Origin: Pelagibacterium flavum
Lineage (GTDB): Bacteria > Pseudomonadota > Alphaproteobacteria > Rhizobiales > Devosiaceae
Assembly (NCBI RefSeq): GCF_025854335.1
Contig: NZ_CP107716.1
Coordinates: 1,171,001 to 1,235,000 of the forward strand
Length of the DNA stretch: 64,000 nt
Direction: 5' to 3'
How positions within the stretch are numbered: the first letter of the stretch is position 1; every line of letters begins with the position of its first letter. The notes under the pieces were generated by a model, which was not told the origin of the DNA, searched no databases, and saw only the letters and a list, made by a program, of their open reading frames with translations. Below, piece after piece: positions 41,517 through 64,000 of the stretch. A program made the position numbers and the translations under genes.

Positions 41517-41849
41517 TGGGGCGATGAACGCTCCGCATGTTTAGTTAGTATATGAAGCGATCATCGCCCCACGCGCCCGGGGTTTTTGGCTTAGTCGCCC
41601 TTCAGAAGGCTAGGGTCAATCCCTTCCGGGTTTCCCCGGTACGACGGCGTTAGCAAAATCGCGCCAGCCTCGAAACCGAGATCAGGCGGCCGGTTCACGC
41701 CGTCCGGCGCTTGTGACGTTTGGGCCTTCCCTGCGGCGACCCGCAAGGAACCCGGACCAAACCCGCCCAAACGTTCGTTGCGCTTGCGTCCATATGCGCG
41801 GGTTCGTGAGAGGGAGTATGGGGGAGGTTGAATGGGCGGGGATAAGTTT
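41517..41849. repeat. Structured repeat element, copy 1 (with compensatory changes versus copy 2)
   Basis: About 333 bases shared with 62002-62333. Order: a 16-bp stem (41517-41532 / 41556-41571, one mismatch); a core (41577-41759) nearly identical between copies; a closing stem AACCCGC (41760-41766) / GCGGGTT (41798-41804); and an end GCGGGGATAAGTTT (41836-41849). Hairpins inside the core are CCGGG-TTTC-CCCGG (41626-41639), CTCG-AAAC-CGAG (41669-41680) and a 10-bp TTCC..GGAA stem (41727-41750). In copy 2 the paired bases change together. No convincing protein is encoded. A further perfect hairpin AATCGTGCC/GGCACGATT sits just before (41469-41489). The strand and function are unknown. Confidence 0.75.
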
Positions 41850-41954
41850 CTTTGCGGCTGGGGCGTGTGGCGACGCATCATGATGGATTCCGGGAATAAA
41901 TCCCGGAATGACAATGGGGAGTGGGATGTTCTCCATCATCTCACACTCCCCCGC

Positions 41955-42094
41955 GTCATCCTCGGGCTTGACCCGGGGATCTACAGCGCTGCCATTGAGC
42001 ACCGCAGAAGTGATACGTGTGGCCTCTCCCCGTTCCCAAACCTCTTCACCGGCTGCCCAATGCAGCGGATCCCCGGGTCAAGCCCGAGGATGAC
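41955..42094. repeat. Mosaic intergenic palindromic repeat, copy 1
   Basis: A 27-base arm GTCATCCTCGGGCTTGACCC.. (41955-41981) recurs as an exact inverted copy at 42068-42094, with 86 bases between. The same arms bound 61782-61917. This motif is common in intergenic DNA of rhizobia as a mosaic repeat. A degenerate third arm lies near 42125-42150, and a separate ATTCCGGG/CCCGGAAT dyad lies at 41887-41909. The remaining intergenic sequence up to 42396 carries no gene I can support. Confidence 0.8.
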
Positions 42095-42396
42095 GACGGG
42101 GGGGCGGGCGATGGTGATTGGATCGAGAGCGGGTCGAGCCTGAGGATGATGATGGGGTGGGGTGAGTGGTGAGGATGGAGCCGGAGAGGGGTAAGACCGA
42201 GGGCGACGATGGCAAGGCCGGGGCTACCCGTCCCTGACTGTCCCGGACCCGATCCGGACACGCAAGCCTTGCCGATACTCTTGGCGGCTGCAATTGGCTC
42301 AATAAGGCCGCTCACCGGCCCGACGGACTCCATCGCCCCTCTGGCGGGAGGGTTAAGGGAAGTCGCATGAGCGCCAGTGAAACTCCAGCCGCGGCC

Positions 42397-62335: not shown

Positions 62336-62815
62336 TCACCGGGCCGACGTGATCCATGGCTTTGTCCAGGCGGCCGGTTGCTGCGGCGGTTCGGTGGGCG
62401 ATCGCCCGGCGCGCCGCCGGCTCATATTGGCCACGGTGGCGACGAGCATGGCGGCCATATCGCCGTTGGCGGCATCGAGCCGGCCCTTGAGGCTGCGGGG
62501 ATCGGACTGGGGGAAGTCGTGTTCGAGCCCGAGGGTTTCAAAGCGGGCAGCGGCTTCGCCCAGAACCAGCAGAATGGTTGAAAACCTGACCGTCCCGTTC
62601 GGCAGGGAAGGGACGGCGCGCTTGTGGCCGAGGCCGGTCGCAAAGCGCCGCAGATCGGTCAACAGGGCCCGGACCAGACGGGCGGTCTCGTCAGGCGCTT
62701 CAAGGGTGGGGCGCGACCTGCCCTGCGCGGCCATGGCGCCCTGAACCGCCGTCAGCCGCGCCATCAACGCGGCAAAGGCTTCGGGGGCGGGTGTGGATGT
62801 CTTGCGGCGGGGCAT
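62336..62815 (-). CDS. Hypothetical protein
   Basis: 159 residues, ATG 62815 with GGAGA upstream. The sequence is Ala/Arg/Leu-rich and helical, with LVRALLTDLRRFATGLGHKR, VRFSTILLVLGEAAARFE and a low-complexity C-terminus. No signal peptide, membrane segment or known domain. The stop is flanked by the structured repeat on one side and by the retron island on the other. Composition (high GC) matches the chromosome, not the island. Confidence 0.5.
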   Translation of the reverse strand: MPRRKTSTPAPEAFAALMARLTAVQGAMAAQGRSRPTLEAPDETARLVRALLTDLRRFATGLGHKRAVPSLPNGTVRFSTILLVLGEAAARFETLGLEHDFPQSDPRSLKGRLDAANGDMAAMLVATVANMSRRRAGRSPTEPPQQPAAWTKPWITSAR

Positions 62816-62909: not shown

Positions 62910-62966
62910 TTAAAATCGCTAAGAGCGAACTTTAATCTTGAAAAAACAAATTTTGCTCGCTATATG
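62910..62966 (+). promoter_or_regulatory. Promoter of the retron island with upstream dyad
   Basis: A -35 box TTGAAA (62938-62943), a 17-base spacer and a -10-like TATATG (62961-62966) make a good sigma-70 type promoter. Directly upstream lies the dyad TTAAA-a-TCGCT-AAG-AGCGA-ac-TTTAA (62910-62935). The XRE protein encoded downstream could bind this dyad; that is inference. A transcript would start near 62973. Confidence 0.55.
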
Positions 62967-62971
62967 TATTC

Positions 62972-63196
62972 TCCGTCTAACGGAAGAACGTCGTTATCTG
63001 AAGGTCGGGCTCTATTATCCCGACCGTGGAGGGGTGACCCTCTATCACTTCCCCCAAGAGGCCCCGGTGGGACGGGGACCGACACGGGCGAAGCAGCCGC
63101 GATCAACGACTGATCGCGGCTAGAATGAAGGTGAAGTTGCTGTTTCCGACCTCTGTTTGAGACGACCCTAGAGGACTTCCCCTCTAGGCAAACAGA
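62972..63196 (+). ncRNA. Candidate retron ncRNA (msr-msd) region
   Basis: About 225 bases between the promoter and the first start codon hold stacked hairpins: TCCGT/ACGGA (62972-62984); GGTCGGG/CCCGACC (63003-63025); GAGGG/CCCTC (63029-63042); CCCCG/CGGGG (63062-63077); a perfect 11-bp AGCCGCGATCA/TGATCGCGGCT (63095-63121); and a nested pair TCTGTTTG/CAAACAGA (63152-63159 / 63189-63196) enclosing CCTAGAGG/CCTCTAGG (63167-63188). AGGTCGG (63002-63008) could also pair with CCGACCT (63146-63152), as an outer a1/a2 helix would. Its position, ahead of an HTH gene and a retron reverse transcriptase, fits msr-msd. The exact boundaries and the branching G are not determined. Confidence 0.5.
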
Positions 63197-63207
63197 AGGA
63201 GAACACC

Positions 63208-63369
63208 ATGAGTGTTTCTGAAGACCAACAGCAACGGCGGCGGTGGACGCGATGGTGCATCTGGCAACGGATGCGCAACCCCAAGGTCCTGACGACGATT
63301 ATCAGGGCAGCATACGCGCTCTATCGGCTTATTCGCTTTATCTTTGAGTGCTTCTGCACTGGGGGATAA
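63208..63369 (+). CDS. 53-residue cationic/hydrophobic peptide of the retron island
   Basis: ATG 63208 is preceded by AGAAGGAG at ideal distance. The N-terminal half is Gln/Arg/Trp-rich (QQQRRRWTRWCIWQRMR); the C-terminal half is an amphipathic or membrane helix with three Cys (VLTTIIRAAYALYRLIRFIF, then ECFCTGG). This is the make-up of small membrane-active toxins. It lies 35 bases before the XRE gene. The adjacent hairpin at 63152-63196 reaches into its ribosome site, so translation may be structurally controlled. The family is not recognised and toxicity is inference. Confidence 0.6.
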   Translation: MSVSEDQQQRRRWTRWCIWQRMRNPKVLTTIIRAAYALYRLIRFIFECFCTGG

Positions 63370-63404
63370 ACCGCCAACCCAAATTCTATGAAAGGAAAGA
63401 GAAC

Positions 63405-63707
63405 ATGCTGCAGGAAGCATTACGGCTTATTCGAGTTTTTCACGATCTCAAACAGTTTGAGGTTGCCGAAAAGATCGGAGTATCTAAGTCTTATATTTCT
63501 GAACTCGAAAATGGATCGAAGGCGCCTAGCTTGGAGGTGCTCCAAAGGTATTCATCCGAGTTTGGCATTCCAGTGTCATCGCTAATGTTTTTCTCAGAGC
63601 AAATAGACGCTGCCAAGAGTGGTGAAAAGGTGCGAACAACTATTGCTTCTAAGGTGATAGACATCCTAAAATTCATCGAAAACAAGTCTAAGGCGGATGC
63701 TGCCTGA
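63405..63707 (+). CDS. XRE-family HTH protein, retron-associated
   Basis: 100 residues from ATG 63405 with AAGGAAAGAG upstream. The HTH is at about residues 15-42 (FEVAEKIGVSKSYISELENG), with PSLEVLQRYSSEFGIPVSSLMFF next, a compact XRE fold with a C-terminal helical tail. The start EALRLIRVFHDLKQ is what I recall from HTH proteins next to retron reverse transcriptases. The stop overlaps the reverse transcriptase start (TGATG). It may act as the retron accessory or effector-control protein and as autoregulator through the dyad at 62910-62935. Confidence 0.82.
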   Translation: MLQEALRLIRVFHDLKQFEVAEKIGVSKSYISELENGSKAPSLEVLQRYSSEFGIPVSSLMFFSEQIDAAKSGEKVRTTIASKVIDILKFIENKSKADAA

Positions 63708-63852
63708 TGAGGCCTGGCCATCGGATTGTCGATAGCGCCCTGTACAAGGTGCGAACCCGCCGGCGGCTTGCTGAGTTACTTTTCACCGAAGTTGGATTTC
63801 TTGAAAGCCTTGAGAAAAACCAGCCTAAGTATGTGGTGAAGTACAAACCTAG
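63707..63852 (+). pseudogene. Retron-type reverse transcriptase, truncated by insertion
   Basis: The frame starts ATG 63707 and reads SALYKVRTRRRLAELL near residues 10-25, then FLESLEKNQPKYVVKYKP. This is the N-terminal segment of retron reverse transcriptases, which begin with SPLYxIxSxxxLAxLL and a Y..F/K region. It ends at 63877 as a 56-residue frame, whose last eight residues derive from the inserted sequence. None of the catalytic blocks (including YADD) is present in the window. The break falls at CTAG (63849-63852). The rest of the gene should lie beyond the insertion sequence. Confidence 0.75.
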
Positions 63853-64000
63853 GGTCCATACCCAATCAGTTTGTTGAATAGACGCTGCAAATCAGATTCT
63901 CTGGCTTTAGATGAGTTCGGAGGTATCGATGAGCAGACTATTTTGGTTGAGTGATGCAGCTTGGGCGGCCATTGAGCCACATCTCCCCAAGAACCAGCCT
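63850..64000 (+). mobile_element. Left end of an IS5-family insertion sequence
   Basis: After the CTAG at 63849-63852 comes GGGTCCATACCC, a terminal-repeat-like start with internal dyad, then 60 bases and a transposase start codon. IS5 family elements of the IS427 type prefer CTAG-like targets. The right end is outside the window. Confidence 0.65.
63929..64000 (+). CDS. IS5-family transposase, N-terminus (partial)
   Basis: ATG 63929 has GGAGG five bases upstream. The 24 visible residues, SRLFWLSDAAWAAIEPHLPK, match the start of IS5-family (IS427-group) transposases, which carry DDE catalytic residues further on. The gene runs off the right edge. Confidence 0.85.
   Translation, partial: MSRLFWLSDAAWAAIEPHLPKNQP

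Follow-up and report, generated by a model that had tools for sequence, protein, structure and literature searches.

Type I toxin-antitoxin systems such as Hok and TisB make a short membrane-type peptide from an mRNA whose structured leader hides the ribosome-binding site. In the available part of a short review, the retrons described keep their effectors in check by means of msDNA (PMC13158370), and in retron-Kva2, a type IX system, a winged-helix protein contacts the msdDNA according to the accessible excerpts of its description (PMC13405049). Type VI retrons are presented, in the portion of PMC8541194 at hand and citing Mestre 2020, as a reverse transcriptase (RT) accompanied by a DNA-binding protein and small auxiliary proteins. 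A literature search that placed bioRxiv preprints outside its scope turned up no type VI retron mechanism, Shine-Dalgarno (SD) lock, operator or effector in the portions of the papers it reached, and the corresponding portions of PMC12548924, PMC8934634, PMC12948488 and PMC12262390 contain nothing on type VI retrons. Small auxiliary proteins are thus on record for this type in that part of PMC8541194, and the existence of a small peptide in the locus described here is not new. What is new is a predicted translation lock, a conserved palindrome and two RT genes broken by insertion sequences (IS) beside intact peptide and HTH genes. The reading that we lean toward, with slightly better than even confidence, is an RT-less retron in the analyzed genome and, in its intact relatives, a locked peptide effector under autoregulation by the HTH protein.

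The locus, its insertion element and its neighborhood

The window, by which we mean the whole 64,000-nucleotide stretch of Pelagibacterium flavum DNA that was analyzed, ends inside an insertion element. Immediately to the left of that element, at 62916-63851, lies a locus that is, judged from its sequence, a type VI retron whose RT was lost. All of its parts are on the plus strand, in the order operator-like palindrome, structured leader, 53-residue basic peptide, HTH_VI protein and RT start. Two relatives referred to below carry the intact retron: L003, the Rhizobiales MAG UBA3584, and L155, from the congener G393.

62916 to 62928, plus strand: palindrome TCGCTAAGAGCGA, candidate HTH_VI operator from the inverted-repeat listing, of the class TCGC-N4-6-GCGA
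62938 to 62966, plus strand: candidate sigma-70 promoter TTGAAA-N17-TATATG, read by eye
62974, plus strand: the sole base differing from L003 between the palindrome and the RT remnant, C here and G in L003 and L155
62974 to 63207, plus strand: structured leader, putative msr-msd noncoding RNA and peptide leader, with a putative 5′ end
63095 to 63121, plus strand: 11-bp hairpin of the minimum-energy structure, candidate msd stem
63152 to 63196, plus strand: bulged hairpin abutting the peptide SD, made of an 8-bp stem, a 7-nt 5′ bulge (AGACGAC) and an 8-bp stem
63196 to 63201, plus strand: Shine-Dalgarno AAGGAG ahead of the peptide gene, for the most part paired in the predicted fold (free about 0.25)
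63208 to 63369, plus strand: 53-residue cationic amphipathic peptide, net charge +7, SD AAGGAG, candidate effector
63405 to 63707, plus strand: HTH_VI Cro/C1-type protein of 100 residues (PADLOC HTH_VI, 1.9e-35; Pfam HTH_3, 1.8e-13)
63707 to 63851, plus strand: type VI retron RT remnant comprising codons 1-48 according to tblastn of the L003 RT; the reading frame runs on to 63877 inside the IS
63852 to 64000, plus strand: left part of an IS5-family element of 846 bp in total, which continues outside the window to L002:5697

An earlier note, made from the letters of the sequence, had proposed an HTH-accessory retron cut by an IS5 element, with tightly coupled genes in this order on one strand and a GC content below that of the surroundings. 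All of this was borne out. The class is type VI (HTH_VI E 1.9e-35, with positions 1-91 of the 92 in the PADLOC profile covered), the RT ATG overlaps the XRE stop, and GC is 0.47-0.53 at the retron locus against 0.61-0.68 leftward and about 0.62-0.66 past the IS. The XRE gene is counted here from its ATG; the mechanical reading frame begins at a GTG (63348). When the host genome was searched with the HTH protein, the next-best match after the HTH_VI protein itself reached just E 8.4e-7 at 30% identity.

The 56-residue frame at the RT start aligns to RT_VI from position 1 and matches the start of the L003 RT, but the profile match covers positions 1-34 of 279 and is weak (E 0.029). No RT sequence lies to the right of the insertion, where it had been expected. 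Relative to L003, RT codons 1-48 are kept, about 848 bp reaching beyond the RT stop are deleted, and the IS occupies the place of codons 49-308. The retron reading stands all the same, with an RT of 308 residues and a YADD motif in both L003 (RT_VI E 2.7e-85) and L155. To take the absence of RT sequence to the right as a refutation would have misled, because the rest of the RT is deleted here yet intact in these two relatives. Since the YxDD core is deleted in the Pelagibacterium flavum genome, the locus is a remnant and no working retron. Both relatives are close, with 3 differences from L003 in 4447 aligned bases and, in L155, a retron at the same place whose HTH, peptide and RT are 100%, 98% and 99% identical.

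The remainder of the insertion element was read in the host-genome stretch L002. Its family name is taken from Pfam (DUF4096, 8.6e-25; DDE_Tnp_1, 3.8e-18). Seven genome copies, this one included, stand at 100% rounded identity, which suggests recent activity, and all seven have TA at both ends, in keeping with a DDE transposase of the IS4/5 kind and a target duplication. The unlike left and right targets (CTAA within the RT, CTAG downstream) would fit recombination between two separately inserted copies, or else a deletion adjacent to the element. A second cut type VI RT (L012:4775-4873) was found in Novosphingobium, where RT homology ends at about residue 167. From the break up to the end of the contig, the sequence matches stretches of 43 plasmid records, most of them rhizobial, and in one of these records the matching stretch lies beside an annotated IS630-family transposase; the cutting element has an IS630-like end. 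The peptide and HTH genes are open in both IS-broken loci.

The retron locus is flanked by the gene at 62336-62815 and by uvrB (L002:6480), and nine of the 11 congeners searched have a homologue of that gene near uvrB. These nine stretches carry differing cargo, and their cargo regions share no DNA except one 60-base match. In L155 the cargo is the intact type VI retron; elsewhere it includes AriA (L159, 1.7e-31, an AriA-like AAA ATPase followed by a 281-residue protein without family match), NsnA (L160, 9.3e-23, NsnA/PD-T4-2), PDC-S60 (L161, 1.6e-67, metallophosphatase-NTPase), DzbA (L162, 4.9e-53) and a dGTPase (L157, 5.8e-10). L154 and L156 have weaker matches to PADLOC defence models, and L158 is matched by Pfam rather than PADLOC (Beta_protein and Peptidase_M78). 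The site beside uvrB looks like a chromosomal defence hotspot, and the word island in the earlier note is apt insofar as the cargo next to uvrB varies. Short repeats common to several places in the genome occur at L002:5700-5960, L002:6320-6440 and window positions 41546-42105. The sole RVT_1 match of the genome, L001:1501-2196, is sited away from the retron locus; it has no RT_VI match at E<=1e-5, its best PADLOC matches being the generic RT and RT_UG4 models at about 1e-9.

Peptide, leader and translation start across the family

Homologues of the HTH protein were collected from GTDB genomes (30 loci, 27 used), from plasmids and phages (86 and 16 records, with 12 stretches analyzed), from IMG/VR (45 loci, 43 used) and from genomes of the same class (5 besides its own). 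In this last set HTH_VI matched 238 of 385 genomes, mostly through generic XRE cross-matching, and six hits (own included) were used, at E<=2.4e-22. Partial matches (L030-L032) and weak ones (L129-L130) were left out. Homologues of the XRE protein mostly stand beside RTs: a full RT motif is present in 80 of the 88 loci analyzed (79 by pattern, plus L049 with YQDD), two loci are IS-broken and six viral loci are without the motif. Among the loci retained for comparison are representatives of Alpha- and Gammaproteobacteria, a Burkholderia phage, a cyanobacterial plasmid, a Verrucomicrobia MAG and an Ignavibacteriaceae MAG. The six viral contigs (L092, L093, L094, L096, L098 and L099) encode HTH_VI-like proteins at 45-49% identity, with no RT within 1500 bases and no reading frame that passes the peptide rule given below; by sequence they appear to be a retron-less branch of the regulator. 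Removal of these six and of L014, whose contig starts too close, left 81 loci, 44 of them non-redundant.

A peptide reading frame precedes the HTH gene in all 44 loci (33-67 residues, median 54, net charge +2 to +16; the L076 peptide was set by hand after the automatic picker had taken another frame). In every one of the 44 peptides hydrophobicity is higher in the C-terminal half than in the N-terminal half, and the helical moment exceeds that of composition shuffles (0.594 vs 0.419, p=1.1e-13). When the peptides were judged by one rule that took in length, SD, charge, hydrophobicity and helical moment, 43 of 44 retron loci passed and none of the 33 control XRE loci did. These figures are to be read with a picker that favors positive charge and a pass rule set after the retron set had been seen. 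Sequence identity among the peptides is low. The window peptide matched nothing in PADLOC at E<=1 and nothing in Pfam above cut-off, and a search with it alone in a database of 5.8 billion proteins returned one cluster only, identical to the query. The peptide profile retrieved 82 proteins from the same database, none with a Pfam domain and, among those named, no known toxin; the names are "hypothetical" or "uncharacterized" save for one labelled a lantibiotic modifying enzyme. From these properties, a small, possibly membrane-active peptide is the likely candidate for the effector of type VI retrons. The peptide is a conserved part of these loci; the tripartite abortive-infection module of the earlier note, which would include peptide and HTH protein, is a hypothesis.

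The spacing of the two genes brings in another role for the peptide. Between its stop and the HTH start there are 16-76 bases (median 41; 30-60 in 38 of 44 loci), a distance that would allow translational coupling, and the peptide could be a leader peptide that merely couples translation to the HTH gene, or else an antitoxin-like or anti-defence accessory. We regard this as distinctly improbable, for all 44 loci share the cationic-hydrophobic pattern and the amphipathic moment despite low identity, unlike what a mere leader would retain. We continue with the peptide as candidate effector and turn to the RNA ahead of it.

The leader (62960-63215) folds more strongly than dinucleotide shuffles (-107.4 vs -82.8 kcal/mol, z -4.98) and differs from that of L155 at 1 in 234 bases. 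An Rfam search of it returned no family at its gathering score. Pairing of a1 with a2 is equal within loci and between mismatched loci (8.86 vs 8.89, p=0.62), so the limits of the msr-msd region are not established, and the motif listing yielded nothing useful for a1/a2 repeats. A covariance model from the sequence-based alignment recovered 7 of 42 sources at E<=1, four with E below 0.001, with close kin of the seed loci as its two best matches, and a column-pair scan of its alignment was uninformative. Because both performed poorly, each locus was folded individually against shuffles. The single derived base at 62974 was considered as a suppressor that closes the SD and was rejected, as the free fraction is 0.251-0.261 with the relatives' base and 0.253-0.256 with the window's own.

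In the SD pairing test, the 105 bases upstream were folded in each of the 44 non-redundant loci and compared with versions in which the upstream part had been shuffled. The peptide SD pairs upstream with a mean probability of 0.551 vs 0.308 in shuffles (39 of 44 loci higher, p=1.4e-8), and the HTH-gene SD of the same loci, taken as a control, gives 0.456 vs 0.456 (p=0.74). This is a family average: taken singly, just 13 of 44 loci have p<=0.05, five are not above shuffles, and the window locus by itself is not distinguished (0.49 vs 0.40, p=0.45). Where upstream pairing falls below 0.30, in 10 loci, the SD is without exception paired downstream, at 0.51-0.82. Shuffling the early codons of the peptide gene weakens folding of its start region from -6.56 to -5.33 kcal/mol (p=6.4e-4), an effect that reaches p<=0.05 in 6 of the 44 loci taken one by one, and the HTH gene start has no such excess (-4.95 vs -5.30, p=0.073). 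An automatic rule for the bulged hairpin (stem, 5-9-nt 5′ bulge, stem, with the 3′ arm ending <=16 nt from the start region) found it in 26 of 44 loci vs 1.7% of 4400 shuffles, and found none in the other 18. By raw count, 16 of the 26 bulges contain G-N-G-A, which is absent from the window's own bulge. These elements are short: less than 100 bp for hairpin and palindrome, less than 210 bp for the peptide gene. From these folding models we infer a family-wide lock on peptide translation by RNA structure.

The two broken RT genes bear on what such a lock would do. An intact peptide and HTH gene next to each of them argues that neither RT nor msDNA is needed to keep the peptide harmless, at least in these two cases, and the simple version of a model in which msDNA is an indispensable antitoxin was set aside as unlikely. 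If the peptide is toxic, something other than RT or msDNA would restrain it in growing cells; lock and HTH protein may be enough for that, with the RT perhaps acting as sensor or trigger. The same observation can be turned around: reverse transcription could be the activator, with the RT opening the lock or driving peptide synthesis, so that loss of the RT silences the system. Both IS-broken loci keep peptide and HTH open, as if no RT meant no toxin, and the lock is predicted to hold without protein, with the SD free at about 0.25. There are just two cases, however, one of them at a contig end, and the reviewed retrons hold effectors back via msDNA in the part of PMC13158370 available; we consider this reading unlikely.

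Candidate operator palindrome and HTH protein

Autoregulation by the HTH protein would act on the DNA ahead of the leader. TCGC-N4-6-GCGA occurs in the promoter region of 34 of the 44 non-redundant loci, where shuffles would give 0.84, and a stricter form, CGCT-N2-5-AGCG, is present in 25 of 44 loci and in 2.2% of shuffles. TTGAC or TTGAA follows the palindrome within 30 nt in 18 of the 34 palindrome loci, with 2.0 expected; a consensus promoter scan found no sigma-70 match at 62938-62966. A palindrome adjoining the promoter suggests a regulatory role for the HTH protein, which would bind TCGC-N4-6-GCGA directly.

A different role is conceivable, in which the HTH protein is the effector or an msDNA-bound switch, in the way that the winged-helix protein of type IX binds msDNA, and the peptide is an adaptor or leader peptide. 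The HTH protein is, after all, the named type VI accessory (HTH_VI), a winged-helix protein contacts msdDNA in the described excerpts of retron-Kva2 (PMC13405049), and half-site words occur in the putative msd region of 20 of 44 loci against 13.1 expected. That excess is weak, however, with two other half-site words at 16 vs 12.3 and 15 vs 13.3, and the msd hairpin as a decoy for the HTH protein was not established on these counts. No domain besides the Cro/C1 HTH was found by sequence in what is an ordinary one-domain protein, the position of the palindrome at the promoter suggests regulation, and the six RT-less HTH_VI-like viral loci fail the peptide rule too. This arrangement also seems to us unlikely.

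Proposed working and comparison with known systems

For intact relatives, we therefore return to the locked peptide effector under HTH autoregulation. The HTH protein would bind the TCGC-N4-6-GCGA palindrome beside the promoter and limit transcription of the operon. The transcript would serve both as RT template and as leader of the small cationic amphipathic peptide, and the conserved bulged hairpin at its 3′ end would hold the peptide SD within or next to itself. Should phage infection disturb the HTH protein or the assembly of RT, msDNA and RNA, the lock would open; the peptide would then be made and damage the membrane, and growth would stop. Binding of the operator by the HTH protein, membrane toxicity, the part played by msDNA and the phage trigger are the inferred steps in this sequence. 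As a generalization about the class, which we hold tentatively and at somewhat less than even odds, type VI retrons would be translation-locked systems linked to reverse transcription, in which the 3′ end of the RNA locks a membrane-acting peptide and the HTH protein resets the operon through a conserved operator.

Should the peptide prove to be the effector, with control exerted at its translation, the retron would regulate the synthesis of a toxin and would not hold back a finished one, and retrons would be joined with the logic of type I toxin-antitoxin systems. Two natural losses of the RT with peptide and HTH kept constrain models of msDNA as antitoxin. The window locus itself is a decayed type VI retron, and the useful lead is the family-wide architecture.

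Set against the described type VI retrons (PADLOC HTH_VI with RT_VI), the family has its HTH_VI and RT_VI proteins in the same order, and the Pelagibacterium flavum copy is without the RT. In its available portion, the type VI account (PMC8541194) mentions neither a bulged hairpin beside the SD nor a conserved palindrome, and no peptide effector controlled by a lock. With the type IX retron-Kva2 the operon shares a protein of DNA-binding fold; there, in the excerpts at hand, the effector is a HEPN RNase and an SD-locked peptide is not described (PMC13405049). The likeness to type I toxin-antitoxin systems lies in a short peptide behind a structured leader with a predicted hidden ribosome-binding site. 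Sequestration of that site is a prediction that holds as a family average (p=0.45 for the window alone), and the amphipathic peptide, a candidate toxin by its physicochemical profile in 44 of 44 loci, is without a Pfam family above cut-off or a named-toxin match. Unlike the leader of a type I toxin, the leader here probably doubles as a template for reverse transcription.
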